A DNA stretch of 34,585 bases, taken from contig PBTO01000110.1 of assembly GCA_002726595.1 (NCBI GenBank), positions 1 to 34,585 of the forward strand, written 5' to 3'. This stretch comes from Gammaproteobacteria bacterium. Lineage in GTDB: Bacteria; Pseudomonadota; Gammaproteobacteria; Pseudomonadales; Pseudohongiellaceae. Positions 206 through 34,562 of this stretch are shown here, piece after piece; position 1 is the first letter of the stretch; every line of letters starts with the position of its first letter. A program made the translations under genes and the position numbers. The notes beneath the pieces were generated by a model, which was not told the origin of the DNA, did not search any database, and was given only the letters and a program-made list of their open reading frames with translations.

Positions 206-868
206 ATTCAGCATTTCTATTGCATCTGGCTTATTGAGTTCAACGCCGATAACAACTTCCTCGGCGTCAAGTTTCTGGCGCACGATTTCTGCCCCTCTAA
301 GAAGGGCCTCCGGCTGTTCCAGCATCACTCGATGATCGTTGGTCAGAAAGGGTTCACACTCAGCGCCATTGATTAACAAGTAGCGAATATTCGCCCCATC
401 AGGGATGGAAAATTTCACGTGGGCAGGAAAGGCCGCACCACCCATGCCCACAATCCCGGCATCCTGTACCGCCTTGACAAAATCTTCTGCAGACATCGAA
501 CTCCAGTCGATTGGATCTCCTACTTCGGCCTGCTGTGAGGCATAGGGATCGGCTTCGATTTCTATTGCCTGGGCAAAGTTGCCATCGTAGGCGCGAAATT
601 CCCCGATCTCACTAACCCGACCGGTAACTGGACTGTGCAGAGAGCTTGAGACAAATCCACCCGGAGTGGCGATTAATTCCCCCCTTCGTACCCGTTGGTT
701 TTTCTCAACCACCGGTTTGCAGGGCACGCCGATATGCTGATTCAGCGGCATAACAAACTTTGTGCCAAAGGGAACCCGTTGAATCGGCAGATTCTGGGTT
801 TGTGCCTTCAGGTGCTGGGGATGGACGCCGTTTTGAAAGCTTTTGCTAAGGAGATTAAAAGGATTCAT
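68..868 (-). CDS. rnfC: RnfC-like electron transport complex subunit C, N-terminal part only (truncated or chimeric at window edge)
   Basis: FGTKFVMPLNQHIGVPCKPVVEKNQRVRRGELIA...SSLHSPVTGRV...GIVGMGGAAFPAHVK...LLINGAECEPFLTNDHRVMLE...VVIGVELNKPDAI are typical RnfC motifs; the expected downstream KYPxGxEKQLI and cysteine motifs are absent. Confidence 0.8.
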   Translation of the reverse strand: MNPFNLLSKSFQNGVHPQHLKAQTQNLPIQRVPFGTKFVMPLNQHIGVPCKPVVEKNQRVRRGELIATPGGFVSSSLHSPVTGRVSEIGEFRAYDGNFAQAIEIEADPYASQQAEVGDPIDWSSMSAEDFVKAVQDAGIVGMGGAAFPAHVKFSIPDGANIRYLLINGAECEPFLTNDHRVMLEQPEALLRGAEIVRQKLDAEEVVIGVELNKPDAIEMLNRAIECMSDLVNYAPGGYIDDIYSQIELLNNTLSIEHDTTTRGVVW

Positions 869-887
869 TTAGCCATATCGAGTTTTG

Positions 888-3800
888 CTAATCCGCCGGT
901 TCCGATCGCGCAGGTGCGTTGCTCACCAGACGCACGAGCTGACTGCGTACTTTTCCCGCCACCTCAGACCTGATACCGTCTCCCTGATCTTTAAGTTGCT
1001 GCTCATATTCCGCTCTGATCGTTGCGATTTCCGCCTCGTGTTCAGTCTGCACCTGCTTCCTGATCCGTTCCTCTACAGCCTCTGTAAATGGCGTAACAAC
1101 ACCTGCCAGTTCCTGCAAAACTTGCCAGGCGTTTGTGGCCGCTTCGGTGGCATTGATCAGTTGTTCATCGACATCCAGTTGAATTTTATCTTCACCCGAC
1201 TCGATGGTGATAAACGCGCTCTTGCCCTTGCGTCCTCTTTCATTCAGGCCGATATATTCAGCGAGTTCGACCCCATCATCCGCGTTGCTTGTCGGTTTAA
1301 AGTGACTGGAAAATCGCGCTTCGGTAGCTGCCCAATGGGCAATGGTGAAAGGCGCATCTTCTTCATCAGAGGGCGAGTCGTTGGCAGAGATGTCCAAACG
1401 GGTACCATGAACACCGGGCAGTTCAGGATTGTAGTTAAAGAGTGGAAATGCCAGGGATTGGGCCGAGAATTTTGCTTGTTGTAGAGTCAGGTATGACTCG
1501 AAGCCATGGCGTGCCGGGCTGGGCGTGTGAACACGGACAAACGCCGGTCCTGAATACTTGATCGCATCGGTAACACTTTGCTGATAATGATCAGGTCTGG
1601 CGATAGAAATCTGGGCTACATAGGCGGTTTGGCATGCCACTGCCATTAATCCGGTGTTCGTGCGACTATCCTGCGGTCGATCAGCCTTGCTTTGCAGGCC
1701 CAGATCGAGGTCCGTGAACGATATTATTTTGATCGGCAGGTCTGAACTCAGCGACCAGAGCAACTGGGCCAGACCGGCACCACCGAGTGTTTCATCATCG
1801 CCAACAATGAGCAGCGGTGGACAGATTTGCCTCTCTTCTTCAGACAGATCCTGCCATGTTAGTTGAGTGATTTCTGCCTTGCCAAACTCTACACCTGGTG
1901 GCTGCTCGATCTCAAGTCGCGCCAGGCGCAGCAGTGCAATGGCCTCGCAGGTCTCGCGCAGATGCCCTTCGAGCAAACCCGCGGCCATTGGCGATGTCTC
2001 ATTGGAAAAATCCACAGTCACTGGAGACTGGAATGCATTGTAGGGGAAGACCGCAGCCCAGGAGGTGATGTTGCCGTTGGCTATGGCCAATCCAAAGCGG
2101 GAACGGCCAAGCCCCTGTCTGCCACTGGTGAGTTGGGTTTGCAGATCTGCCAGACGTCTGGTGAGATCGAGCAAGCTGCTTAGCCGCGCGGTATCAACTG
2201 GAGTGACACCGATACTCGCCTCGACGCTTTTCGCTAGATCGCTCAGCTCAATTATCGGTGACTTGACATCATCGACGCTTTTTTCCAACTGATTCAGATC
2301 CTCGTCACTGATCTCGAGAGCCATCACTTTGCGAATCTCACCGCGAATTTCTTCGATTACACTGGCGATCTCTTCGGAAAAAGCGGTAATTGTTGGTTGC
2401 TGTTGGTATTCGGTAGCAGCAAGAACCATGCGCATAGCGATTTTTTCACCAGAACCAGCCTCTCCCCCATCACCGCCGGACATGCTCAAAAGGCAGTGGC
2501 GGGAAAGATTCAATGCTGCCATGTTATCGACATCATCTGAGCTGAAAACCCGATCGATAGTCTCCGAACTGGTGTCTGGCGTCATCATCCAGGTATTCCA
2601 GGCCTGGCGCGCACTGCTTACAGTCGCTTCATCCTGAATCTGAAACAGGATCGCCTCTTCGGCACAGACCTCCTCGCACAGACCGCAGTCCTTGCAGGAG
2701 TCAGGATTGATTACCAGCGACAAGAGTTCACCGCTGTCCTTGGTCTTGGCTTCGGCCTGTTCAAAGAGTACATCGGTAACGGAAACAGGAAGTGAGCCGA
2801 CTCCATCGCAGACTAAATCCAATGCTTCTTCGACCGCTTCCTGACGTTCCGGGGTAAGGTCCAGTTTTTCACTCAACCAGTCATAAGCCTCACGCAGCAC
2901 AATACCAGCGTTCGCACCCAGGCTCTGTATCCTGGCCTGGCTCAGTATTCGGGATGTCAATTGCTTGGCCAGTTGGCGTAGTGAATCCCCGCCGACTACC
3001 TTGATGCCATGATCGATAAGATTTGCCGGACTGATAGCCACCGGAGCAATAGCGCTGTCGGGACAAGCGGTCCAGCACTCACCACAGCCGGTGCACTTTT
3101 CCGGATCTATCTCTGGAAATCTACCGCGCTGATCGGAAAAATCCCTGAAGGTCGCACTCAGTGGTGCAATGCTGCCGCTAGCCAGATACGGATCTGGTGA
3201 AAAGCGTTCCGAGCTACCGCCTTGGTAGAAAATACCGACCTGATCCCAGAATCGCGGTACGCTATCGAATTGATTATCTTTTGCTGCCAGATGTTGCAGG
3301 GCGGTGGGGGCTGATTTGTTTTGAGCGGCCTGATTATCACCGGTGATTGATGGCAATGAATCAACATCCAGCGGGCTAACATTTTCAAATCCATTTTTGA
3401 ATAACTCGACCCGGGCTTCACGATTTTCTTCGGAAAGTGATTGCAGGGCTACACTGCGGATAGAAAATACCTTGCGCTCTTTCAATGTGGCTAACCCCGA
3501 CTGCACGATAGTGCCCAACACTGCACCTAGGGTAATTTCCTCTATATCGGATTGTGCCATGGAGGCCGGAATCGGAATGGAAAAGAGCTGGAGTGATTTT
3601 TGCTCCAGCACAGCGCTGTATGGCGCAAGCATTTGAGCTAGCTGCTCCCCTGCCACTTCGGGAACAATAATCTTGCCACCAGTGCGCAGCCGCTGGAGTG
3701 TGTCAGCATCGACCGCTACTATTTTCCCGTTACTACCCCGTGTCAGGCAGACAATATCAAGTGCAGCAAGATCGCCGGGATCAACCAGATCCACATTGGA

Positions 3801-5378
3801 ATGCAGCAGGAAGTCGCTACCTTGCTCCCCCCAGGCACCCTGTGACAGCCAGGGGCGAGATCGAACTGTTCCACCGTTTACCTGGTGGAGAATACTCGCT
3901 ACATTCTGTGTGATCTGATCATGGCCGCTTGCACCGCTGCGCAGTATTGCAAGCGAGATTGTTCCTTCAACAACTGCATCCGGCGAGCCGTCTTTTGACC
4001 GTAATCCTGTTTCTGCCACGTTAGGATACGCACGCTTAAGCTGGTCCTGCAAAACCTGTCGTTTCGGGTGCAGGGTATCCGCTTCGAAATCCATACCCAG
4101 ATGCAGGGTTGCAGTTTTTACTTTACTCACTGAAGAGGGTACCAGAGCAAGATCAATCGCACGCAAGGGCGCTCCGCCGATGCCGTATCTAACCGAATGG
4201 AGAACAGACGATAAGGAACCGGGCAACCGACGAAATTCGCGTAACAGTGGGGTCTCGGCACCGGGTGCCGGTAGTAATCGCTCCAACACAACAATGTTGG
4301 CTTTGCCATTGAGAAGAGAAGCCAATTCTTCGGCCGGAAATGGTCTCATGCAGGTCAATCCAATGACTCCGGTTTTGGGTAGAGAATCGGGAAGCGAATC
4401 TGCCACCGCAATAGCCGTTTCAACCGCGGCGCCCTGAGCGACAAAAACCGTCTGCGCACGCTCAAGCTTATTTTGGGTCAGCCGCCCATACTGTCGCCCG
4501 GTGATTTTGTAAAACTCGGCAAAAGTTTGCTCAAGCACTGCAACGAGTGCTTCCTCAAAATATACATTCTTACCGGCTGCACCCATGGCGTAGCTGTCTG
4601 AGTCGAAAGCAGCACCGGTAACTACCGGTCTGTCCACATCATGCCAGCGTGGTACGCTCAATCGCGTGTCGCCGAACAGCAGGCGCTGCGCCTCATTTGG
4701 AACGGGCAGTTCACTACTCGAAGCATCCAGCAAGCGCTTAACCTGTGACGGGCCCAGGATATTCACATCCTGCCATGACAGGGCTGTCTCCTCTGCATCC
4801 ATCGCAACCAGTCCAGGGACTAGCGTTGTCTCGGCAACACGACGGGCAATAAAAGTGAAGTCTGCTGCCTGCTGGGCGTTCTGGGCAAAAAGTGTAAACA
4901 CGCCAGTATCGCAGCTAAGGTGATAACCCTCATGACCACTGCCTGGCGCGATGCCGTGTCCAGACATGGCGTTGTTGGTGAGGTGAATGACGAGTGGTAA
5001 ATGACGACCGCTGGCGGTAAACAGCAGATCCTGAATTGCACCGATATTTTGCCCGGTCACAAATGCTGTTGCCCGTTTGCCTGCCAGCGACAAACCGATT
5101 GCACTGGCAACCGCTTCACGAGCACCTTTGGTTGCTATGGAAGTCAGCGGTTGATTAAAAACGTTTGAACCATTTTTCTCTATCTGTTCGTGCCAGGATT
5201 TTTCCAGATTGACATCCCCACCAAGTACGGCGCTCTCGCTGATAGCTGCCTCAGCGATAACTACCGCCCTGTTGCCGGTAAGAAGAGTGAGGATCTCATC
5301 TTCCGCGCCGTGGGTCGGTTTACTGTATTTCCGATATAGCCGTACAGCTATACCCGACAAACCGGTCAGCTCAGCCAT
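888..5378 (-). CDS. Large NifJ/pyruvate:ferredoxin oxidoreductase-like fusion (alpha-, gamma- and ferredoxin-like domains plus a degenerate beta/TPP-like domain)
   Basis: N-terminal PFOR alpha-like domain (TGNRAVVIAEAAI..., GIAPGSGHEGYHL), gamma-like domain (AILRSGASGHDQITQNVASIL), two 4Fe-4S motifs (CTGCGECWTACP, CKDCGLCEEVC), and a C-terminal beta-like domain lacking canonical catalytic motifs. Confidence 0.8.
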   Translation of the reverse strand: MAELTGLSGIAVRLYRKYSKPTHGAEDEILTLLTGNRAVVIAEAAISESAVLGGDVNLEKSWHEQIEKNGSNVFNQPLTSIATKGAREAVASAIGLSLAGKRATAFVTGQNIGAIQDLLFTASGRHLPLVIHLTNNAMSGHGIAPGSGHEGYHLSCDTGVFTLFAQNAQQAADFTFIARRVAETTLVPGLVAMDAEETALSWQDVNILGPSQVKRLLDASSSELPVPNEAQRLLFGDTRLSVPRWHDVDRPVVTGAAFDSDSYAMGAAGKNVYFEEALVAVLEQTFAEFYKITGRQYGRLTQNKLERAQTVFVAQGAAVETAIAVADSLPDSLPKTGVIGLTCMRPFPAEELASLLNGKANIVVLERLLPAPGAETPLLREFRRLPGSLSSVLHSVRYGIGGAPLRAIDLALVPSSVSKVKTATLHLGMDFEADTLHPKRQVLQDQLKRAYPNVAETGLRSKDGSPDAVVEGTISLAILRSGASGHDQITQNVASILHQVNGGTVRSRPWLSQGAWGEQGSDFLLHSNVDLVDPGDLAALDIVCLTRGSNGKIVAVDADTLQRLRTGGKIIVPEVAGEQLAQMLAPYSAVLEQKSLQLFSIPIPASMAQSDIEEITLGAVLGTIVQSGLATLKERKVFSIRSVALQSLSEENREARVELFKNGFENVSPLDVDSLPSITGDNQAAQNKSAPTALQHLAAKDNQFDSVPRFWDQVGIFYQGGSSERFSPDPYLASGSIAPLSATFRDFSDQRGRFPEIDPEKCTGCGECWTACPDSAIAPVAISPANLIDHGIKVVGGDSLRQLAKQLTSRILSQARIQSLGANAGIVLREAYDWLSEKLDLTPERQEAVEEALDLVCDGVGSLPVSVTDVLFEQAEAKTKDSGELLSLVINPDSCKDCGLCEEVCAEEAILFQIQDEATVSSARQAWNTWMMTPDTSSETIDRVFSSDDVDNMAALNLSRHCLLSMSGGDGGEAGSGEKIAMRMVLAATEYQQQPTITAFSEEIASVIEEIRGEIRKVMALEISDEDLNQLEKSVDDVKSPIIELSDLAKSVEASIGVTPVDTARLSSLLDLTRRLADLQTQLTSGRQGLGRSRFGLAIANGNITSWAAVFPYNAFQSPVTVDFSNETSPMAAGLLEGHLRETCEAIALLRLARLEIEQPPGVEFGKAEITQLTWQDLSEEERQICPPLLIVGDDETLGGAGLAQLLWSLSSDLPIKIISFTDLDLGLQSKADRPQDSRTNTGLMAVACQTAYVAQISIARPDHYQQSVTDAIKYSGPAFVRVHTPSPARHGFESYLTLQQAKFSAQSLAFPLFNYNPELPGVHGTRLDISANDSPSDEEDAPFTIAHWAATEARFSSHFKPTSNADDGVELAEYIGLNERGRKGKSAFITIESGEDKIQLDVDEQLINATEAATNAWQVLQELAGVVTPFTEAVEERIRKQVQTEHEAEIATIRAEYEQQLKDQGDGIRSEVAGKVRSQLVRLVSNAPARSEPAD

Positions 5379-6222
5379 ATCGCTCCCCTCTTACTTCAAG
5401 CTCCTCTTGCTCCTCAAACTGGTCTTTATCCAGCCACTTGATAGTGTTGGTGGCACAGCGAAAAATCACTTCCGGCTCACCTTTAATTGCACTGGCATAG
5501 TCGATAACGGGTAAACCATTCTCCATGGTGATGAGTCCGGGGCTTGCATCGAGGGCACATTTGCCGCAGGCGTCACAGGCGGTGGTACACAAAATAGTCG
5601 CTGCCTCACCTTGTAGTGGTGAGTTGCATTGCACGTAAAGCTTTTGACTGATTGGTAGTAATTCAAACAGATCTTTGGGGCAGGCATCGGTACAGTCCGG
5701 GCAGCCAGTGCAAAGATCGGTGTCGACCTGGGGCAGACCGTTGCTGTTCATGTGAATGGCATCGAAGGTACAGGCCACATCACAATCGCCCAGACCAATA
5801 CATCCCCAGGTACAGCCCTTGCCACCGCCGGATACCATCGCCGCGGCGCGGCATCCTTCGAATCCCTGGTACTCCGCTATCTGGTGTGCCTGTACACTGC
5901 CACCGCCGCACTTCATTCGTGCTACCAGCCGATCGTGCTCGCCGACATCCACGCCAAGATATTCCGCTACATTTTCAACTTCTTCTGCAGTCGATACGGT
6001 GCACTGACTCGGAGAAACCGCGCCCTCCACCAGCTTCTCTGCAAAGGGCAGACACCCCGGTTGACCGCAAGCGCCACAGTTGGTACCAGGCAATAGATTG
6101 TTGGTGCCGTCTATTCTGGGATCTTCATCGACTTTTAAATAACGATAAGAAAAAGCGATGATTACGCCAAAGAAGAGTCCAAGGCCCATCATGATTGCAG
6201 GTGCGATCAATACGCTGTTCAT
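5371..6222 (-). CDS. rnfB: RnfB-like electron transport complex subunit B, long multi-cluster type
   Basis: N-terminal TM segment (MNSVLIAPAIMMGLGLFFGVIIAFSYRYL), NCGACGQPGC...C, CTWGCIGLGDCDVAC, CTGCPDCTDACP, CTTACDACGKC; 8-bp ATGGCTGA overlap with the downstream CDS. Confidence 0.88.
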   Translation of the reverse strand: MNSVLIAPAIMMGLGLFFGVIIAFSYRYLKVDEDPRIDGTNNLLPGTNCGACGQPGCLPFAEKLVEGAVSPSQCTVSTAEEVENVAEYLGVDVGEHDRLVARMKCGGGSVQAHQIAEYQGFEGCRAAAMVSGGGKGCTWGCIGLGDCDVACTFDAIHMNSNGLPQVDTDLCTGCPDCTDACPKDLFELLPISQKLYVQCNSPLQGEAATILCTTACDACGKCALDASPGLITMENGLPVIDYASAIKGEPEVIFRCATNTIKWLDKDQFEEQEELEVRGERYG

Positions 6223-8654
6223 TAGTTAAAAGGCTCAGCCCGAGCGATCAGATCTTCCAGATCAGGCTCAGAGGAATCGAGTGGTTTGCCCGGATGAATG
6301 CATCGTGCCGGGCACATTTCCGCCGCCTCAACCATTTCAGCAAACGTCCCTGCTTTGGTATCGGCAATTATGGCCTGGCGATTGTCGTTGTACACGAACA
6401 TTTGTTTGTTGAGGTTCAGGCAGTCATCACAGGTAGTACAGAAGATTGAATCGATCCAGGGCTCATCAAAACTGACGTCGTCGTCATCCTCTTCTGTTGC
6501 AACCTCAGGTACTGCTTCTGGCTGGTCGGTGACCTCAGTCTCTGCTTTTGCAGTAACCGGTGGGGCGCTGGTTGTAGCTGGTGCCGGGGAGGTTGCTATT
6601 AGCGAATCGCTGGACAGATCAAGACCTACCAGCACATTGGTGAGCTTCGCCATGACCTCCGTGGTGGATTCTGTCTGGATCTGTTGCACAGTTTCCTCAT
6701 AGGCTTTTATAAGCTCTTCCCTCTCGCTTGCCGCTAGCTGCTGCTGTTCTTCGCGCGACTTTCTGAAGGCTTCTTCAACGTGAACATTTCTCACGCCTGC
6801 CAGGGATTGCAGCGACTGCCAGAAATTCAGCCGATCACGACAGGCAAAAACAAGCCGTCGGGAAACCACCAGTTTGTGCATTTGCTGGTGCTCATTAACC
6901 GCCCATATATGCGGAACCAGCCGGTTCTGATCTTCTGCACTGGCATTGAGATAGGCATCAACAGATACCAGATCCTCTGTTTCACAGCCATCGGGCACAA
7001 CCCGAAAGTGATCCAGAAGCTCAGGCTTGAGCAAGCAATAGTCTGCAAAGGTGAAGGCAAATTCCTCTTCAACCAACTCTTTTTGCGCGTTGGTGTAACT
7101 AACTGGATTCGAAGCCCAGTCATTTTCTGGACTGGGATTGCCAGAGAAATCCAGCCCGCCGGCATCATCCACCTGGCTCGGATCAAAATTGATATAGGGG
7201 TGGGCACGACTCTCAAGCGCCGCACTCGCCAATAACCATGGGTGAAGACTTTGGGATTCGGTGAAACCGGTGTTGATCAGGTGCAGGCAAGCCTGGTGAC
7301 TGCCGAGTGCTGCAGAAAAACCCGACAGAAGAGACTCCACTTTGGCGGCAGACACCTGATTGATTACTGCGTGTCTGTGACCGATGCCAAGATAGGCCAG
7401 TTCCAGTCGCTGACCGCCCAGAATATCTTCCGTTTGTCCGGGATTGGTGTGCGGATCGGTGTTGATCAGTATATGCACAGGCTTACCTGATCCCAGCAGC
7501 GCCGAAAATGCCTGCATGCCATCAGTTGATACATGCTCTGCAGATTCGAAAGCTATCACCGTGGGAATTAACTGCTTCTCGGCTTCGTCGAAGGCATCGG
7601 CGTCGAAAATCGCAAACCAGGAGTCATGGAATCTTTCGTCATAACTTTCTGTCAGTTCGAGCTCAGCCGTGCGCAGACTCGCAAACAATTTCGCTAAACC
7701 GTTGGCACTCTGTTCATGTATTTCCAGCGCTTTGGTGCAGGGATCATCAGACTCAATAATCGTTAATGCGCTGGCATCTTCAATTGAAAAACTGCCGGGT
7801 CTTGTAACCAGATGCAGGGCATTTTCCTCAATCTTAAATTTCCCGAGTGCTTTGATGATTGATTTGACCCGTTTGAGCCGCTTCGATTCCATTGGCACAG
7901 AGCCTTTGCCCCGGTGATTGACAACATCCGCCATGGAGGAATTGTTAAAAAACCGCGAAGCCTCACCGACAATTTCACCCTGCCCTTCCTTTTCGTCCTC
8001 AATCTTGACTAGTTGTTGCAGACCTCTGGTTGCCTTCTCAATGCGTCGGATCAATGTTTCGTGTTGCAACTGTGTTCGCTGACGCACTTTATGTTGCAGC
8101 AGATGCAGGGCGACATTGGGCCCATACGGCAACACGTGGCTTCCCTGCGGAATACCTGCAACGAGCGTGTCAAGATCAGCCTGTAATGTATTCTTGCTCG
8201 ACTCATCGAGGTTGATTTGCTTCTGCAGCGCCTGACCCGCCTCGGCAAGCAGATCTCTGGCCGATGTGGCGTAGTCCTGTCCTGAAACCTGATCTCGGGA
8301 GTAGGTCTCCAGCCAGTTGAGATTATCCCTGAGAATCCGTGCTGCGGTGTCATCCTCGGGTAAAGCGTCAGTTAAAAATTCATCGAGAGGTTTAGCCGCC
8401 AACTCGCCGTCCTCAGCGGGGGAAAGCAACAGGGGATATTCGTAGCGAAAACGGTGCAAATTGCGGAAATTATTTAGCAACAACGGCAGGTAGGCGCCGT
8501 CCGGCAAGGTTGTTGACGCAGTCGCCGTGGGTTCGCCAAGGTGAAATCGGCGCAACAAGTTGACAGTTTCCTGCAGCTCCTCGGTATCGAGTTCATCAGC
8601 GGGAGGAATATAAGGCTCATCTGGATTCGGTTGATTATGTACTGGCGAGTCCAT
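6222..8654 (-). CDS. 810-aa protein of unknown function with C-terminal 4Fe-4S ferredoxin domain and possible degenerate PFOR-beta-like region
   Basis: C-terminus CTTCDDCLNLNKQMFVYNDNRQAIIADTKAGTFAEMVEAAEMCPARCIHPGKP; internal SGKPVHILINTDPHTNPGQ...HAVINQVSAAKVESLLSGFSAA resembles PFOR beta; TAATG overlap with rnfB. Confidence 0.75.
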   Translation of the reverse strand: MDSPVHNQPNPDEPYIPPADELDTEELQETVNLLRRFHLGEPTATASTTLPDGAYLPLLLNNFRNLHRFRYEYPLLLSPAEDGELAAKPLDEFLTDALPEDDTAARILRDNLNWLETYSRDQVSGQDYATSARDLLAEAGQALQKQINLDESSKNTLQADLDTLVAGIPQGSHVLPYGPNVALHLLQHKVRQRTQLQHETLIRRIEKATRGLQQLVKIEDEKEGQGEIVGEASRFFNNSSMADVVNHRGKGSVPMESKRLKRVKSIIKALGKFKIEENALHLVTRPGSFSIEDASALTIIESDDPCTKALEIHEQSANGLAKLFASLRTAELELTESYDERFHDSWFAIFDADAFDEAEKQLIPTVIAFESAEHVSTDGMQAFSALLGSGKPVHILINTDPHTNPGQTEDILGGQRLELAYLGIGHRHAVINQVSAAKVESLLSGFSAALGSHQACLHLINTGFTESQSLHPWLLASAALESRAHPYINFDPSQVDDAGGLDFSGNPSPENDWASNPVSYTNAQKELVEEEFAFTFADYCLLKPELLDHFRVVPDGCETEDLVSVDAYLNASAEDQNRLVPHIWAVNEHQQMHKLVVSRRLVFACRDRLNFWQSLQSLAGVRNVHVEEAFRKSREEQQQLAASEREELIKAYEETVQQIQTESTTEVMAKLTNVLVGLDLSSDSLIATSPAPATTSAPPVTAKAETEVTDQPEAVPEVATEEDDDDVSFDEPWIDSIFCTTCDDCLNLNKQMFVYNDNRQAIIADTKAGTFAEMVEAAEMCPARCIHPGKPLDSSEPDLEDLIARAEPFN

Positions 8655-8726: not shown

Positions 8727-9680
8727 CTAGATCAAAAATTTGTCGAGCACTTCGTTGACACCGGCAAGTTTCTCCTCATGGCTCAAATCAAGACCGTTGC
8801 TGGAGATTTCGTTGTACATTCTTGCATCAGGATTTCTGTACAAAAGTCCCACAGGAATCTTGGACAAATCTGTTGCCAGGCCCAACGCCGCAGAGAGATC
8901 ACCTGGATCATGATCCAGCTGATTTTCGAATAACTTTCCAACACCATCTGGCACCGGTATGCCCTGCTCATGATTGAGCAGCAATAATCTGGCCGGATCA
9001 TCCAACATCTCATCATTCATCACATCCATGAAAACAGGGCAGCGCTGTACGATACGAACAAAGCTGGTGCCCTTGTGCTCATGAGCCGCTTTGATGGTCT
9101 CGTACAACAGAGGTGGATTCCAGTCGACCATTTGTGCCACGAAGGAAATATTGGAAACACCGAGAGACACTGTCAGTGGATTAAGTGGCGGCAGGACCGC
9201 ACCACTTGGGTGTGTATTGGTCTGGTATTCCTCAGGTGTTGTCGGCGAGGTTTGTTTCTTGGTCAGGCCATATATCCCGTTGTCAAAGACCAGTACTGTC
9301 ATATCCATGTTGTAGCGAAGTGCATGAACCCAGTGACCTGCGCCAATTGAGAAACAGTCACCATCACCAGTCGCAACCCAGACATCCAGATCTGGTCGCC
9401 TGGATTTAACACCACAGGCTACCGGCAACGCCCGTCCGTGAAGACCGTGAAAACCGTAGGTTTTCATATAGTGAGGCAGTCGGCTGGAGCAGCCTATGCC
9501 AGACACCGATACGGTCTTCTCCGGTAATAATTGTTTCTCCCGGCACACCCGGTGCACTGAAGCCAATATGGCCAGATCGCCACAGCCTGTGCACCACCTG
9601 GGCTCGGCACCTGCGTAGTCATCCAGCGTGAAGTAACGATCATTTGCCTTTACAGACCAATCTGATTTTAGGCCAAACAT
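8727..9680 (-). CDS. korB: 2-oxoacid (2-oxoglutarate-type):ferredoxin oxidoreductase beta subunit
   Basis: RWCTGCGDLAIL, GIGCSSRLPHYMKTYGFHGLHGRALPVACG, VATGDGDCFSIGAGHWVHALRYNMDMTVLVFDNGIYGLTKKQTSPT (intact TPP motif). Confidence 0.93.
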   Translation of the reverse strand: MFGLKSDWSVKANDRYFTLDDYAGAEPRWCTGCGDLAILASVHRVCREKQLLPEKTVSVSGIGCSSRLPHYMKTYGFHGLHGRALPVACGVKSRRPDLDVWVATGDGDCFSIGAGHWVHALRYNMDMTVLVFDNGIYGLTKKQTSPTTPEEYQTNTHPSGAVLPPLNPLTVSLGVSNISFVAQMVDWNPPLLYETIKAAHEHKGTSFVRIVQRCPVFMDVMNDEMLDDPARLLLLNHEQGIPVPDGVGKLFENQLDHDPGDLSAALGLATDLSKIPVGLLYRNPDARMYNEISSNGLDLSHEEKLAGVNEVLDKFLI

Positions 9681-11608
9681 TAATTTTCTCCCTCGATCTG
9701 GATGGCCCGGTCGATAATCACTCGACTGATTTTACCCGGCTGCAGGGGATTACCTGAGACCGTGGACCAGCAATCGATATCCAGCAGTGTGTGCGCTCTG
9801 AGTAGTTGGGCCAGCTGAGAATAGCGACGGGACTCATCAGTAATATAAGGCGAATCGATATCGTCGCTGTAATTCAGCTCGACAGTCATCACTTGCTTGA
9901 AGCGGCTACAGATCTCTCTAAGCCCTGGCTCGAATGGGGACAGGAATCGTAAATGTACAGAAGAGACCTTGTGACCGTTCTCCCTCGCCACGCCGACCGC
10001 TTCCTCAATCGTACCCAGTGTAGAACCCCAACCAACTATCAACAAATCGCCTTCCGGGTCTCCGTGGACTTTCGGTGGTTCCAGTGTTTGCACCATCGCT
10101 GCCAGTTTGCGACTCCGCATGGAACAGCCGGCCTGGTTAGTCGTGGCATCGTAGGCGATTTTCGCGTAGCGATTATGGGCCAAACCAGTAACTACATATT
10201 CTCCACCGCGCATACCTGGAATCGGTCGGGCTGACAGGCCTGTTTCCTCATCCCAATCGTAGGCTGATACCTTCTTATCCCACTCGGATTGATCGATGGG
10301 AGAAGAGAACCAGTCATCGTTAACTTCGGGTCGTTCAAATGGCTGCACACCAGTTGCGAGGTTTGCGTCGGATAACAAGATGACGGGAGTGCGGAACGAC
10401 TCCGCTAATTTGCGTGCGAGGATTACAAAATGAAAACAGTCGCTGATCGTTGCAGCGGCCATGATTATCTTGGGTGAGTCTCCTGGTGCGCCGAACAGTG
10501 TGGCCAACAAATCACTCTGCTCTACCTTGGTAGGTAATCCCGTTGAGGGTCCACCGCGCTGAACATCGATGATAACAAGCGGTATTTCTGCCATGGACGC
10601 CAGGCCGATCATCTCGGTCTTGAGGGCTATTCCGGGTCCCGAGGTAATGGTACAGGCCGTTTTTCCTGCGTAGGATGCGCCGATGGAAAATCCGGCGGCA
10701 GCGATTTCATCTTCGGCCTGATGGACGAAGCCACCAACACGCTGAAACTCATCGGCAAGAAAATGGGATGCAGATGTAGCCGGTGTAATGGGGTACATGG
10801 CGACGAGTTCCATCCCGGAAGCCATAATTCCCAGTCCCACTGCCTGATTGCCGTTCATGACCACCATGCGTTTGTCGGGCTCGGAATGGCTTGCAATTTC
10901 ATAGTGGATATCGATGCTGTCATAGGCAAATTTGTATCCGGCCTTGAACAGTGCGTGATTAGTCGATATGACCTTCTCGCCTTTACGGGCGAAGATGCTT
11001 GAAATCTCAGCGAGTGCTTTCTCCGTATCGCGGCTGTACATGTGAGCCAGCATGCCCAGGACAAACATATTCTTGCCTTTCCGGGGATCTGGAACCACTT
11101 TCAGGCATTCTTCCTGAATCGGCAGTTCAATCACTTCCAGACCGTATTCAGCAAATTCAAGCAGCGCGTCGGCATATTGCTGACGGATTTTCTCGTCTCG
11201 ATCGCTTGCCCACATGTTGTCCAGCAGAACTACGGTTTTTTCATCGTAGGCGTTACTGGCGATTCTTGAGCGCAGAACCTGCTCATTAAATGCAACCACC
11301 AGATTGGCATCGTTACCCATGTTGGTCATAAGAGAGTCGCCGAGGCGGATTCGAATACCACTGGCCCCGTCTGGTGTGCGGGCTGGAGGCTGGATTTCGG
11401 CTGGAATAATCTCTACCGTCCAGACGCCATTGCCCATTCTTGCGCTAACTATTCCAAAAGTCTGTCCGCACTTCTGTGCGCCTTCGCCGGAATCACTTAC
11501 TATTTCAACAATATGCTCACCAATTGATGTTGCCGAATCACGAACCTGCAGTTCTTCGACAACACCATCAATTTGCTTTACGGCTATTAGTTCAGCTGGA
11601 TCGTTCAT
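9680..11608 (-). CDS. korA: 2-oxoacid (2-oxoglutarate-type):ferredoxin oxidoreductase, fused gamma-alpha subunit
   Basis: GNQAVGLGIMASGMELVAMYPITPATSASHFLAD, HQAEDEIAAAGFSIGASYAGKTACTITSGPGIALKTEMIGLA; TAATG 1-bp overlap with korB. Confidence 0.92.
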   Translation of the reverse strand: MNDPAELIAVKQIDGVVEELQVRDSATSIGEHIVEIVSDSGEGAQKCGQTFGIVSARMGNGVWTVEIIPAEIQPPARTPDGASGIRIRLGDSLMTNMGNDANLVVAFNEQVLRSRIASNAYDEKTVVLLDNMWASDRDEKIRQQYADALLEFAEYGLEVIELPIQEECLKVVPDPRKGKNMFVLGMLAHMYSRDTEKALAEISSIFARKGEKVISTNHALFKAGYKFAYDSIDIHYEIASHSEPDKRMVVMNGNQAVGLGIMASGMELVAMYPITPATSASHFLADEFQRVGGFVHQAEDEIAAAGFSIGASYAGKTACTITSGPGIALKTEMIGLASMAEIPLVIIDVQRGGPSTGLPTKVEQSDLLATLFGAPGDSPKIIMAAATISDCFHFVILARKLAESFRTPVILLSDANLATGVQPFERPEVNDDWFSSPIDQSEWDKKVSAYDWDEETGLSARPIPGMRGGEYVVTGLAHNRYAKIAYDATTNQAGCSMRSRKLAAMVQTLEPPKVHGDPEGDLLIVGWGSTLGTIEEAVGVARENGHKVSSVHLRFLSPFEPGLREICSRFKQVMTVELNYSDDIDSPYITDESRRYSQLAQLLRAHTLLDIDCWSTVSGNPLQPGKISRVIIDRAIQIEGEN

Positions 11609-15292: not shown

Positions 15293-16639
15293 TTAGACGT
15301 TGCGTACTGCCGCCGCCATGGCATCAAACACTTCTTGCAATACACGTCGTGACGAGGCGATGTTCATACGCATATGTCCTTCACCACCGGTACCGTAACT
15401 ACTGCCAGGATTCAGGTAGACACCGGACTTCTCGGTTAGCCAATCCTGGAAGTAGGACTCTGCGGAATTTTTGCCATGAACCTGGGCCAGTTCTTCTGCG
15501 CCGATAGCATCCAGGACCTTGCTGAAGTCCAGGAAGGTCATGAACGTACCTTCGTTACGGGTATAACCGACGTTGGGGATGTGCTCTTTGATGTAGTTCT
15601 CGACAAAAGTATGGCTTTCATCCATATAGGTATTTGCCTGGTCGAACCACTCGGCACCGTATTGATAGGCTGCCTCATTGGCCACCACGCCCAGCGTGCT
15701 GAGCTCGGCGCGGTGGAACTGATTCACCTGTGCCAATAGCCTGGGATTCTTGGAATAGAAATAGGCGTTCTTCATCGCTGCCAGGTTGAAGGTCTTGCTG
15801 ATAGCGTTGAAGGACACGGAATTATTAACCACTGCTTCATCCCGCAAGCTGCCGAAAGGCACATATTTATGCGCGGCGCGAATCACGTCGGAATGAATCT
15901 CATCAGCCAGTACGACAATCTCGTGATCCAGAGCCAGGCGGCCAATGCGTAACAGTTCTTCTTCGGTCCACACATTACCGGTCGGGTTCTGTGGGTTGCA
16001 GACAATCATCGCTCGCACATCTGCCGTCATCTTCGACTCCAGATCCTCCCAATCGATTTCGTAGCGACCGTTTACGTAGCGCATTTGACTGTCAATGGTG
16101 TCCACGCGCGCGGCGCGGGCCATGGAGTAAAAACCGGAATAACAAGGTGACGTCAACAGCACTTTATTGCCGATCGGGACGAATGACCGCAAGGCGGCAA
16201 TAATGCCCGGGTAGACACCGTCGGAAAGAGTGATTGATGCAGGATCGAGATCGACGCCGTGGCGCTCACCGTTCCACTTCACGATGCCTTCTCTAAGCGG
16301 CTCGGTGGTGCTGATGTAGCCCCAGTTGTGGTGCTGCACGCGTTCTGTCAGTGCTTCGGTAATACAGGGCGCACACTCAAAATCCATCGATGCCACACCC
16401 ATGCCGTACTTGAATACACCCTCGGGGTATCTGCGTGCGGGGGAATCCCAGCGAGAGCAATTGGTGCCAACACGATTGTATGGCGTGTCAAAGTCATATC
16501 TGCCGCCTGCCAGTATTGGAATACTGGTTGAGCTCTGGGCAGAGGCCGTGTTGGTAACCGCCCCTGCGGCACCAACCAGCGCAGTCATGCCTGCGCTTTT
16601 GATGAAGGTTCTTCTATTCAGTCCGACAATCTTTGACAT
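15293..16639 (-). CDS. Tat-signal PLP-dependent aminotransferase, MalY/PatB (cystathionine beta-lyase)-like
   Basis: Tat leader NRRTFIKSAGMTALVGAAGAVTNTASA; CNPQNPTGNVWTEEEL, LADEIHSDVI, SFNAISKTFNLAAMKNAY (PLP lysine). Confidence 0.88.
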   Translation of the reverse strand: MSKIVGLNRRTFIKSAGMTALVGAAGAVTNTASAQSSTSIPILAGGRYDFDTPYNRVGTNCSRWDSPARRYPEGVFKYGMGVASMDFECAPCITEALTERVQHHNWGYISTTEPLREGIVKWNGERHGVDLDPASITLSDGVYPGIIAALRSFVPIGNKVLLTSPCYSGFYSMARAARVDTIDSQMRYVNGRYEIDWEDLESKMTADVRAMIVCNPQNPTGNVWTEEELLRIGRLALDHEIVVLADEIHSDVIRAAHKYVPFGSLRDEAVVNNSVSFNAISKTFNLAAMKNAYFYSKNPRLLAQVNQFHRAELSTLGVVANEAAYQYGAEWFDQANTYMDESHTFVENYIKEHIPNVGYTRNEGTFMTFLDFSKVLDAIGAEELAQVHGKNSAESYFQDWLTEKSGVYLNPGSSYGTGGEGHMRMNIASSRRVLQEVFDAMAAAVRNV

Positions 16640-16735: not shown

Positions 16736-17884
16736 TCAAGATAAAACTTTTCTAAATACTTCTACTGCTATTTCCATCTCTTCTCTGCTACCGAGCGAAA
16801 TGCGGCAGTGTGTTTGCTCCAGTGGTGGGAAGTCCCGGCCCACTAGCACTTTCTGCTCCAGACATGCTGCGCGGAACTCGCTTGCCGGACGCCTGATATT
16901 CACAAAGATGTGGTTGGTGTTGGAGTCCCCAACCTCGAAGCCCATCTCGCGGAAAGTGCCGACTACCATGTTGCGAATCTCGGCATTCTCCTGTGCTTCC
17001 CATGCAATGTGTTCTTTGTCCTCCAGTGCTGTGAGTGCAGCTATGGCTCCAAGCATGTTCACATCGCCCATGCCCCAGGCACTACGGATCTTGGCCAGGG
17101 TCTGTTCCTGTGCCAGTGCGTAGCCGATGCGCAGGCCGGCCAAGCCATGGGCCTTGGAGAACGATCGGGTAATGAAAACATTTTCAAACTCCAGAGCTAG
17201 CGGCAGCGCTGTTTCTATTGCACCGGGTCTGGCGTAGTTGATGTAGGCCTCGTCGATATGAACCATGGTGCCCGGTGCTTCCCGCATCACACGACGTACG
17301 AAGCGCTCAACAGCTTCAGGGCCATGGGCTGTCCCAGTGGGGTTGTTTGGATTACAGAGATAGAGAAGACCTGCTCCCGGGGCGGCACTGGCCAGGGCAT
17401 CGAGATCGACACTTAATGAACTGTCGAGCGACTGCTCCTCTGTGGCAGCACCGATTTGGCGCGCCGTGCCCAAACTGGTTGAGTAAGTAGGCATCGGAGT
17501 CACAAACTTTTTATCGGCAGAACAGAATGCCCTTACCGATCCCTGTAACAATGGCGTGGAGCCGGTGGCCAGTTGCACATTGGCGGTTTCCACGTCGTAA
17601 TAGTTGGCGATGCCTGCGCGCAGCTCGTTGACATGATCGGGCGAATAACCGCGGCCGACCCGCTTGTTAACATGGGCATGCAGTGCCGACATGGTTTTCG
17701 GGCCAGGGCCGCGAGCACTCTCGTTCTGGTTGAGCTGAATGATGCCATTGTCATAGACGCCTGACTTCGATTGAGCCCGGGTCTGCGCCCTGGCACGCTT
17801 GCTTGTTAAGGATGTGCCTGCCAGTACGCTGGCAGCAGTGCCGAGCGCGATTGTACTTACAAATCCGCGACGTGTTGTTTTCAT
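16736..17884 (-). CDS. Tat-signal PLP-dependent aminotransferase, histidinol-phosphate aminotransferase-like (start reassigned to 17884)
   Basis: MKTTRRGFVSTIALGTAASVLAGTSLTSKRARA leader; CNPNNPTGTAHG, HIDEAYINY, TRSFSKAHGLAGLRIGYA; GGAG upstream of the internal ATG. Confidence 0.88.
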   Translation of the reverse strand: MKTTRRGFVSTIALGTAASVLAGTSLTSKRARAQTRAQSKSGVYDNGIIQLNQNESARGPGPKTMSALHAHVNKRVGRGYSPDHVNELRAGIANYYDVETANVQLATGSTPLLQGSVRAFCSADKKFVTPMPTYSTSLGTARQIGAATEEQSLDSSLSVDLDALASAAPGAGLLYLCNPNNPTGTAHGPEAVERFVRRVMREAPGTMVHIDEAYINYARPGAIETALPLALEFENVFITRSFSKAHGLAGLRIGYALAQEQTLAKIRSAWGMGDVNMLGAIAALTALEDKEHIAWEAQENAEIRNMVVGTFREMGFEVGDSNTNHIFVNIRRPASEFRAACLEQKVLVGRDFPPLEQTHCRISLGSREEMEIAVEVFRKVLS

Positions 17885-18060
17885 GCGATTCTCCGATAGC
17901 CGAGTACGGCACTGAGTTAGACTTTGTGTTCTTGTTATTGGTTGTATGTTTTGTGTGAAGCAGTTATTTACAGATCCACGCATATTAACGCTAGCTCATT
18001 ACAAAATACAGCGGATTCTGGACAGATTTGAGCTATTTTTGTAGCAGCTGAAGTAGGGAG

Positions 18061-28048: not shown

Positions 28049-30205
28049 TTAAGGCAGTCTCAGCGCTACCAGCCCTGCCGGATCGTCTGTTCGGGAACTG
28101 CCAATCTGTACCACGATATACTGCCTGCCCTCGTGCATGTAGGTCATCATCCCGTATTGAGCCGGTGCCGGTAATGACGTGCTTGCGAGGATTTCGCCGG
28201 TCAGCTTGTCCCTGGCGTGCAACTCCAACGGCGCATCGGGGATGTTCTGTATGCCACCCTCGCTGAGCGATCGGGTTTGCACAAGAATATCGCCCATCGC
28301 CATCTGGATGGAAAAGCCCACTCCTCCCGAATCGGGAATATCGATCCCTGCTAGCTGAGGATTGCTGGTGATTCGGTTGAGCGTCGGACCAACCGGCAGA
28401 GACCAGGAATGACGGCCCACATTCATATTGTATCCAGTGAGTTCGTTATCCATCGGTTTGAACAACCTAAGACCGTCGATGGTTGGCAAACCGCCACCGC
28501 CGCCGCCTGGTAACCAGGCCGCTACCGTGGTGCCCGTGGTAGGCGTGCTATTTGGCGTCACGCCACCATCGCCGGGCGTTGCGTAGTTGGGGTTGTCCCT
28601 GTCTTGCCCATCGGTAGGACTCATGTAACCGGGGGCAAAGCAGTTGCGGTGGTGAGAAACGAACATCATGCCGGTGCTGGGATCGGCCGCCGGTGGATGG
28701 GAAATCACATTGCCCCCGCCGATACAGCCAATATTATTGGCATAATCATTCTCGTGGTTGAAGGGCAACGCCGGCACATAGAGACCGCCGACATTGTAGC
28801 CATTCAGTATTACCATGGCCTGTTCTTTCAGTTCCGGGGTGTAATCGATGACATATTCTTCGGTTAACCCGTTGGTCACAATTCCGTCCACCGGCTCTGG
28901 CAGGGTGGGGAAAGGCTGAGTTGCCGCCGTGTAATTACCAGGGACTTGCGTCTGGAATACCGGGCGCTCCTCTATTGGCCAGATGGGCTCACCTGTCTCG
29001 CGATTGAAAGCAAAGACAAGACCCTGCTTGGTATTCTGGACCACCGCTGGAATGGTCTGCCCGTCCACCGTCAGATCCATCAACATCGGCGGGGTGGGAA
29101 GATCATAGTTCCACTGGTCGCTGTGGTGAATCTGGAAATGCCACCGGCGCTCACCGGTCTGTACATCCAATGCCAGGAGACTGCCGCCGAAGAGGTTGTG
29201 ACCCGGCCTATGGCCGGCATAGGACTGAACAGTCGACGCATTCGTGACCATGTACACCAGTCCCAGTTCCGGGTCGGCAGATGCCGGTGCCCAGGTGGAG
29301 ATATCACCTGACCAACGCCAGGCATCGTTTTCCCAGGTCTCGTTACCAACCTCTCCAGGCCGGGGTATGGAGTGGAACTTCCAGAGGAACTCGCCGGTTT
29401 CAGCATCGAAACCCATGATATCACCGGGCACATTTTCAATGCGGGTCTGGCCGTAACTGGGTTGATGGCCAACAAGTACCACCACCACGCCGTTAACTAC
29501 AATAGGTGGCGCCGAGGCAGTGACCATACCCAACTCCCGCGGAATCCCGTAGTTAGGATCGTAGGTGCCACCGGCAACAACATAGTCTTGCCAGGGTCCC
29601 CAATCTTCCACCAGCCTTGGAATCAGATCTACGGAACCACTATCGCCAAATCCATCTAATGGAGCCGGAGACCCCCAGTTTTCCAGTGGCAGGCCAGTCT
29701 TGGCATCGAGTGCCCACAGAAAGAAGGCTGGGGTACTGATATAGATTACGCCGCGTCCATTCACCTCGGCGTAGGCAACGCCCTTGCCATAGGCTTGCCT
29801 GGGAGAACGTTGATGGCGGATGGTCTGGGGCTCGCGAAAGGTCCACAGGTTCTCACCCGTGGCCGGATCCATCGCAACCACCTGTCGACGCGGAGTGGCT
29901 ACTGAATAGAGCATGCCGTCAACGTAGATCGGTGTGGAGCGGGAGAAGTAATCCAGGTTAGGACCGAAATTATCGCTGCGCCAGCGCCACACCTGCTCCA
30001 GTTCCGCAAAGTTATCGCGATTGATCTGGTCCAGAGGGGAGTAGCGTGTGTGACCGGCATCGCCGCCTAAATAGCGCCATTCGCCGTTCTCAGTCCCGGG
30101 CAGCCGCTGCGCGAAAGTGGTTGTTACCGTCAGCATCAAACCTGCGAAGGCAAAGCCGAGCAGGAGGTTCTGTGTTCGAAGGAATCTAATTTCTACTTTC
30201 ATCAT
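28049..30205 (-). CDS. PQQ-dependent (quinoprotein) dehydrogenase-like, exported
   Basis: LPGTENGEWRYLGGDAGHTRYSPLDQINRDNFAELEQVWRW; PQQ beta-propeller repeats (MDPATGENLWTF, LDVQTGERRWHFQIHHSDQWNYDLP); N-terminal signal/TM segment. Confidence 0.9.
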   Translation of the reverse strand: MMKVEIRFLRTQNLLLGFAFAGLMLTVTTTFAQRLPGTENGEWRYLGGDAGHTRYSPLDQINRDNFAELEQVWRWRSDNFGPNLDYFSRSTPIYVDGMLYSVATPRRQVVAMDPATGENLWTFREPQTIRHQRSPRQAYGKGVAYAEVNGRGVIYISTPAFFLWALDAKTGLPLENWGSPAPLDGFGDSGSVDLIPRLVEDWGPWQDYVVAGGTYDPNYGIPRELGMVTASAPPIVVNGVVVVLVGHQPSYGQTRIENVPGDIMGFDAETGEFLWKFHSIPRPGEVGNETWENDAWRWSGDISTWAPASADPELGLVYMVTNASTVQSYAGHRPGHNLFGGSLLALDVQTGERRWHFQIHHSDQWNYDLPTPPMLMDLTVDGQTIPAVVQNTKQGLVFAFNRETGEPIWPIEERPVFQTQVPGNYTAATQPFPTLPEPVDGIVTNGLTEEYVIDYTPELKEQAMVILNGYNVGGLYVPALPFNHENDYANNIGCIGGGNVISHPPAADPSTGMMFVSHHRNCFAPGYMSPTDGQDRDNPNYATPGDGGVTPNSTPTTGTTVAAWLPGGGGGGLPTIDGLRLFKPMDNELTGYNMNVGRHSWSLPVGPTLNRITSNPQLAGIDIPDSGGVGFSIQMAMGDILVQTRSLSEGGIQNIPDAPLELHARDKLTGEILASTSLPAPAQYGMMTYMHEGRQYIVVQIGSSRTDDPAGLVALRLP

Positions 30206-33770: not shown

Positions 33771-34562
33771 TCAATTACTCGGCAGTGCGAAAACAAACAG
33801 GTTGGTACCCCGGCTCGGGCGCAGCTCCGGCGTCAGATTGACCTGGCCAGCTCCGGTATTGACTGCAATATACTGCTGTCCGTTCACCGAGTACGTAATG
33901 GGATAACCGCTGACCGATGAACCCAGGTTGATTTCCCACAAGACTTCTCCGGTCTCGTGGTCATGGGCTCGAAAGCGACCGTTGGAATCACCTCCAAAGA
34001 TGAGTCCTCCACCGGTCGCTACCAGCGACATCGTGCCGGCCCGCTCTTCAAACAGCCACTCGGTCGCGCCAGTTTCTGCCGATATCGCGCGCACGGTTCC
34101 CAGGTTTTCGGTATCTGGTGCTATCTGGTGCCTGGCGGCGAGTGAGTAGATGGCGAGACCACCCTGCCCCCCCGCAGTCAGTGCCCGCGCCGTATCGGTC
34201 TCGAAGTCTGCTGTAGCCAGCATATTTGCACAGGTATTGCGCAACGGGTAATACATGGTATTGGTTAGCGGGCTGTAGGCTCCGGCTTCCCAGTCCTTGC
34301 CGCCGGTCCAGGTAGGGCACACGAACACAATCTGTTCGGCTTCCCGGAAGATGATCTCCGGATTCTCGGTGACTGCGCCGGCGCCGTCGATGTCTATGAT
34401 GACGTTCTGCTCAACGGTCTCTGTTGCCCATAGGAACTCACCGGTTGCCCTGTCTAATGTGTAAACCACACCGGTCTTGCCGGGAATGCCGGTAATCACT
34501 TTTCTAGTTTCCCCCAATGTCTCGACCTCCCCTGCATAGTAGTGGGATTTCTGAACTTCCAA
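33771..34562 (-). CDS. PQQ-dependent dehydrogenase-like protein, C-terminal part (5' end beyond or disrupted at window edge)
   Basis: GVVYTLDRATGEFLWATETVEQNVI, GGKDWEAGAYSPLTNTMYYPLRNTCANM, AISAETGATEWLFEERAG, HDHETGEVLWEINLGSSVSGYPITYSVNGQQYIAVNTG. Confidence 0.85.
   Translation of the reverse strand: MEVQKSHYYAGEVETLGETRKVITGIPGKTGVVYTLDRATGEFLWATETVEQNVIIDIDGAGAVTENPEIIFREAEQIVFVCPTWTGGKDWEAGAYSPLTNTMYYPLRNTCANMLATADFETDTARALTAGGQGGLAIYSLAARHQIAPDTENLGTVRAISAETGATEWLFEERAGTMSLVATGGGLIFGGDSNGRFRAHDHETGEVLWEINLGSSVSGYPITYSVNGQQYIAVNTGAGQVNLTPELRPSRGTNLFVFALPSN

Follow-up and report, generated by a model that had tools for sequence, protein, structure and literature searches.

Why does an operon that encodes an intact 2-oxoacid:ferredoxin oxidoreductase, KorAB, also carry a large protein resembling pyruvate:ferredoxin oxidoreductase (PFOR), whose own active site appears to be lost? 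The question is raised by a 34,585-nucleotide stretch from a gammaproteobacterium of the family Pseudohongiellaceae (assembly GCA_002726595.1, contig PBTO01000110.1, here C110, positions 1 to 34,585; hereafter the window), in which korA, korB, the P0003 gene, a long rnfB, the P0001 gene and rnfC follow one another, with rnfC truncated by the contig end. All operon genes described here lie on the minus strand. P0001, of 1496 amino acids (aa), resembles PFOR/NifJ, and an earlier note had read it as a pseudo-oxidoreductase with a dead thiamine pyrophosphate (TPP)/beta domain, kept as an electron relay from KorAB to RnfB/RnfC. Here, we describe P0001 as a PFOR that has almost certainly lost catalysis while being maintained by selection, together with a second such protein, P0003, that had gone unnoticed.

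P0001 and its relatives

The open reading frame (ORF) at 888-5378 is real. Its product matches POR_N (6.7e-15), PFOR_II (2.1e-9) and 4Fe-4S domains in Pfam; TPP_enzyme_C was undetected in P0001 by the same search, which matched KorB to that domain at 1.6e-26. The motif alignments that had been made by eye hold in MAFFT and in an independent profile-profile alignment (hhalign, E=7e-117). For canonical PFOR versus P0001, the proximal-cluster loop reads CGDGACLGCGEK versus GGDGGEAGSGEK, the Cys motif NATGCTSVWG versus NGNITSWAA, and the TPP/Mg motifs GGDGAMYDIG versus GDDETLGGAG and DTQVYSNTGGQ versus TDLDLGLQSKA. All four Cys of the proximal [4Fe-4S] cluster are gone, replaced by E973, S976, N1103 and S1287. 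The fourth of these losses and that of the alpha-domain active site (YPITPS and the catalytic Glu) had not been recognised before, and the latter extends the claim of a dead beta domain to the alpha domain. The Asp of GDG survives as D1195, so one TPP/Mg residue remains, and all eight ferredoxin Cys are present, as first noticed (positions in Table 1).

An AlphaFold2 model of residues 690-1496 (mean predicted local distance difference test 85.7, predicted template modelling score 0.83) is closest to PFOR crystal structures (E 8e-15), which identifies the scaffold as that of PFOR. Compared with PFOR/NifJ (6cin, 1b0p, 7plm), P0001 has the same alpha-gamma-dicluster ferredoxin-beta domain order, the same beta fold and the ferredoxin Cys, and differs in having lost the alpha active site, every one of the four ligands of the proximal cluster and, with its motif, most of the TPP/Mg site. 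It also scores 106.6 bits against NCBIfam TIGR02176 (PFOR), below the cut-off of 911.35; that cut-off alone is not decisive, because one protein of the catalytically intact family T2 described below also falls short of it (403.9).

A homologue search through 369 genomes from the class, together with a named genome collection (80 loci), yielded two families, T1 (the P0001 type) and T2, and residue counts below refer to 65 aligned full-length T1 and 14 T2 sequences. T1 occurs in sulfur-oxidising and related Gammaproteobacteria: Woeseiaceae, Thiomargarita, Beggiatoa-like bacteria, Thioploca, Sedimenticola, tubeworm and lucinid symbionts, Thiosymbion, Thiorhodococcus, Achromatium and a few others. 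Two Thiorhodococcus isolates, T. minor DSM 11518 and T. mannitoliphagus DSM 18266, are among the carriers. T2 proteins (1635-1697 aa) retain all PFOR motifs and are encoded between rnfB and rnfC. They share with T1 this position and the backbone, and differ in their intact catalytic motifs, in holding both ferredoxin domains (the second C-terminal) in one polypeptide of about 1650 aa, and in having no adjoining korAB.

The catalytic losses of P0001 are common to all 65 T1 relatives. The first, second and fourth proximal-cluster sites are Glu (65/65), Ser (64/65) and Ser (64/65), and the third is mostly Ser or Thr with no Cys among the residues listed, whereas T2 has Cys at each in 14/14. The Mg-ligand Asn is found in none of the 65 T1 proteins versus all 14 of T2; within GDG the second Gly is kept in 2/65 and the Asp in 44/65, the window protein included. 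YPITPS and the catalytic Glu of the alpha domain are present in 14/14 T2 sequences, and in T1 this Glu is replaced, mostly by Pro or Ala. The eight ferredoxin Cys, by comparison, are invariant throughout T1 (65/65), and the loop of the former active site shows a conserved GGDxxExGSG pattern, with G968, G969, D970, E973 and G977 (nearly) invariant. In the tree T1 forms one clade (support 100), sister to T2, with a divergent protein of G332 (L042) at its base. Pairwise ratios of nonsynonymous to synonymous substitution rates (dN/dS, by a simple counting method, with dS saturated in some pairs) are 0.05-0.21 for the whole of P0001, and its dead alpha and beta parts give similar values, so the protein is kept under purifying selection. 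Because 65 relatives in one clade share the losses under such selection, these are neither local decay nor error. P0001 descends from an Rnf-linked PFOR, and its tie to Rnf therefore probably predates its tie to KorAB.

Among the relatives of P0001, those of L057, L058, L061 and L150 have no gamma region at all (CoA-binding in PFOR). The T2 loci L037-L041, L048 and L062-L070 place the intact Rnf-linked PFOR with its extra C-terminal ferredoxin between rnfB and rnfC, and a phosphoenolpyruvate (PEP) synthase gene (ppsA) lies near T2 in 3/15 loci (L062, L064, L070); such operons possibly encode an Rnf-driven pyruvate synthase and offer a second lead. P0001 is unlikely as a rule to be a partner of the T2 enzyme; the P0003 search in G219 and G102 gave a T1 locus only and no T2 protein. 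L043-L047 encode two-subunit PFOR-like proteins (about 655 and 520 aa) that form an outgroup to T1/T2; canonical motifs were read in L046, where no Rnf genes were recognised beside them.

P0003 and the partners of P0001

The alignment of P0003 with the T2 profile (E=2e-99) starts at residue 721 and runs to the end, and the predicted fold of P0003 comprises a PFOR beta domain and a C-terminal ferredoxin; it corresponds to one half, ferredoxin-beta-ferredoxin, of the ancestor that it shares with P0001. It lacks the Cys of the internal dicluster as well as the proximal cluster and GDG, and the four Cys of the C-terminal ferredoxin are present in 45/45 aligned relatives. P0001 mirrors this pattern, with the internal dicluster retained and the C-terminal ferredoxin lost. 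By their sequences, then, the two proteins are complementary, catalytically dead derivatives of one Rnf-linked PFOR. No other feature of the sequences argues as strongly for a function in electron transfer as this complementary loss of ferredoxins following duplication.

KorAB is intact, as the earlier note held: in 42/42 relatives of KorB the WCxGCG, GIGC and GDGD motifs are kept along with the fourth Cys, as are YPITPA and AEDE in 43/43 for KorA. Both are intact homologues of the Magnetococcus marinus 2-oxoglutarate enzyme (6n2n/6n2o), with 6n2n as the best PDB match, and the substrate is probably 2-oxoglutarate. To our knowledge, a KorAB enzyme has not been described with a pair of pseudo-PFOR proteins or with an Rnf complex of its own. 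In one genome (G034:C1:2172460-2174035) KorA is apparently split over two adjacent ORFs.

Window positions 206-2682 are 100% identical to the end of a second contig, C71 (L051), which encodes an intact RnfC of 446 aa and, after it, RnfD, G, E and A. All six Rnf subunits (RnfA, B, C, D, E, G) are thus present across C110 and C71, as in the known Rnf complex (RnfABCDGE), from which this one differs by its long multi-Cys RnfB and the pseudo-PFOR between rnfB and rnfC. Window bases 1-205 do not match C71, so the 266-aa RnfC of the window is probably an artefact of an assembly fork. The genomes usually encode a separate short RnfB as well, which makes the Rnf of the T1 operon a second, dedicated one.

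The order korA-korB-P0003-rnfB-P0001-rnfCDGEA recurs across T1 loci; among loci with enough flanking sequence, the counts are 54/57 for P0003, 66/72 for rnfB, 39/45 for korA and 49/57 for rnfC. The six loci with no adjoining korA are all in genomes carrying that KorA elsewhere. A P0003 orthologue is present in all 19 T1 genomes checked. In the 369 genomes, P0001 and KorA of this subfamily (identity of at least 56%) occur together in 11 (p=4e-19, a value that is only indicative since the genomes are related). There is a single exception in each direction, G343, whose assembly is fragmentary, and G213.

A putative electron relay and its alternatives

P0001 and P0003 together probably act as an electron-relay adaptor between KorAB and the dedicated Rnf complex. 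Electrons would pass between the [4Fe-4S] cluster of KorB, the one-cluster ferredoxin of P0003 and the two-cluster ferredoxin of P0001, and onward between the latter, RnfB and the rest of Rnf (ions, NADH). The earlier relay proposal stands in part. A PFOR pseudoenzyme with fully constrained ferredoxin clusters, an operon shared with intact KorAB and a dedicated Rnf, and near-perfect co-occurrence with the KorA subfamily all favour it; P0003, which it overlooked, must belong to any relay, and the direction from KorAB to Rnf should not be taken as fixed; genes in some operons lean the opposite way.

The KorAB-P0003-P0001-RnfB complex, like the electron path, the 2-oxoglutarate substrate and the direction, is something we infer from sequence. 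Several observations weigh against such an adaptor. In G213, KorA and KorB precede a P0003-like protein of 972 aa whose three single-cluster ferredoxin domains stand in tandem (L151:13152-16070), and this genome has neither P0001 nor a long RnfB. KorAB-P0003 and RnfB-P0001 can be separated in Thiorhodococcus, and no fusion genes joining KorAB, P0003, P0001 or Rnf parts were found (a 1091-aa 'P810' ORF in L137 was rejected as a fusion because of a wrong upstream start). The strict conservation of the dead beta loop in T1 may also point to an additional role.

Given a relay, the balance tips slightly towards the reductive direction, in which KorAB would synthesise 2-oxoglutarate and Rnf would use NADH and the ion gradient to provide low-potential electrons. 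Some T1 operons include an NADH-type fumarate reductase (a TfrA/FrdA-like flavoprotein together with a protein of the NuoF family), sucCD and mdh, which hint at reductive synthesis; PEP synthase beside some T2 loci and the presence of 2-oxoglutarate dehydrogenase (OGDH; SucA) in most T1 genomes count for it too. The reductive direction is weakened by the limited occurrence of sucCD (12/62 T1 loci) and FrdA (13/38), by ATP-citrate lyase, not found in 16 of 19 T1 genomes, and by the window genome and its closest relative, where neither RuBisCO nor ATP-citrate lyase was found. A full reductive tricarboxylic acid (rTCA) cycle as the general T1 setting is unsupported, with ATP-citrate lyase in 3/19, and simple replacement of OGDH by KorAB is not general, with SucA in most of the genomes.

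The alternative that survives best, though we consider it rather unlikely, is the same adaptor working oxidatively: KorAB would oxidise 2-oxoglutarate and pass electrons via P0003 and P0001 to Rnf, saving energy that OGDH would waste. Making NADH and pumping ions is the usual direction of Rnf, and the window genome and its closest relative, with neither RuBisCO nor ATP-citrate lyase found, suit this use; the OGDH kept in most T1 genomes and the fumarate reductase and sucCD of several operons suit a reductive branch instead. In the Riftia symbiont under sulfide limitation, dimeric korAB declines together with a 'PFOR-like' gene, nirB and glnL, opposite to the rTCA cluster (PMC11636981). The 'PFOR-like' gene is presumably a T1 member; its fall with korAB against the rTCA cluster favours oxidation, but the co-varying nirB and glnL fit 2-oxoglutarate supply for nitrogen assimilation.

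It is improbable that P0001 and P0003 serve only as a structural or regulatory scaffold docking KorAB on Rnf, with clusters that carry no catalytic electrons. Purifying selection on the dead alpha and beta parts and the conserved GGDxxExGSG loop would be explained in this way, but a scaffold would not need ferredoxin Cys that are invariant in both proteins and divided between them without overlap. Less probable still is that the remodelled beta pocket of P0001 has gained a new catalytic or ligand-binding function independent of TPP, to which the (nearly) invariant loop residues and the GDG Asp in 44/65 could be assigned; beyond the loop, no conserved metal-binding or nucleophile set was recognised, and neighbouring TPP positions are mostly variable. 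Sequencing error, a frameshift or a local pseudogene in a single genome is refuted, despite the fork at the contig end, by the 100% identical contig overlap, an uninterrupted homologue at 74% identity, the same losses in 65 relatives and low dN/dS.

Taken further, the electron-relay adaptor allows a picture that we offer only tentatively: a membrane-anchored, ion-gradient-driven 2-oxoglutarate synthase in which NADH would feed Rnf, Rnf a wire made from two dead, complementary copies of a PFOR docked to Rnf, and the wire KorAB, and CO2 would be fixed with no free ferredoxin in bacteria living with oxygen or nitrate. It would have evolved by a swap of the catalytic module in a pre-existing Rnf-PFOR machine (T2). 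The adaptor itself would be a clear case of a metabolic enzyme becoming an electron wire when its duplicates underwent complementary loss. It suggests that Rnf may be wired directly to 2-oxoacid oxidoreductases instead of being served by diffusing ferredoxin, and makes testable the standing question of how sulfur-oxidising, oxygen- or nitrate-respiring bacteria supply very-low-potential electrons to 2-oxoglutarate synthase.

Known systems and other features of the window

No description of a pseudo-PFOR was found in the open-access PMC literature. Tubeworm symbionts have Rnf and a different, four-subunit KorABCD placed in the rTCA cluster (PMC6315080). That korABCD, with Flx-Hdr, resembles the present system in the proposed direct delivery of electrons to a 2-oxoglutarate:ferredoxin oxidoreductase, and differs in its four-subunit enzyme and other electron module; P0001-type proteins are not described there. 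'PFOR' annotations in such genomes, those in symbiont expression studies among them, call for caution, because a protein counted under pyruvate metabolism may be dead.

Table 1. Coordinates of the operon features in the window.
Feature	Position	Strand	Evidence or conservation
P0001, 1496-aa pseudo-PFOR (alpha-gamma-dicluster ferredoxin-dead beta-helical tail)	888..5378	minus	Pfam, MAFFT, profile alignment, AlphaFold2
P0001 alpha part (PFOR domains I/II, residues 1-420), YPITPS and catalytic Glu lost	4119..5378	minus	
P0001 gamma-like region, residues about 470-690	3309..3971	minus	
P0001 two-cluster ferredoxin, C762/765/768/772 and C895/898/901/905	2619..3116	minus	8 Cys in 65/65 relatives
P0001 dead beta region (PFOR domain VI)	1359..2576	minus	
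P0001 former proximal-cluster loop SGGDGGEAGSGEK, Cys replaced by E973 and S976	2442..2480	minus	E 65/65, S 64/65
P0001 IANGNITSW, formerly NATGC, Cys lost	2058..2084	minus	
P0001 VGDDETLGG, formerly GGDGAMYDIG TPP/Mg motif	1779..1805	minus	
P0001 C-terminal tail, mostly helical, in place of the T2 C-terminal ferredoxin	891..1166	minus	
Long-type RnfB, 283 aa, many Cys	5371..6222	minus	
P0003, 810 aa, second pseudo-PFOR half: dead ferredoxin-beta region and C-terminal ferredoxin	6222..8654	minus	
P0003 single-cluster ferredoxin domain	6285..6458	minus	4 Cys in 45/45 aligned relatives
KorB, beta subunit with intact TPP and [4Fe-4S] sites	8727..9680	minus	
KorA, intact alpha/gamma subunit	9680..11608	minus	
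RnfC, truncated by contig end	68..868	minus	

Elsewhere in the window, two adjoining aminotransferase-like proteins, apparently with Tat-type (twin-arginine translocation) signal sequences at their start, are encoded at 15293-16639 and 16736-17983 (minus), and a pyrroloquinoline quinone (PQQ)-dehydrogenase-like protein and a second, partial one at 28049-30205 and 33771-34562 (minus).

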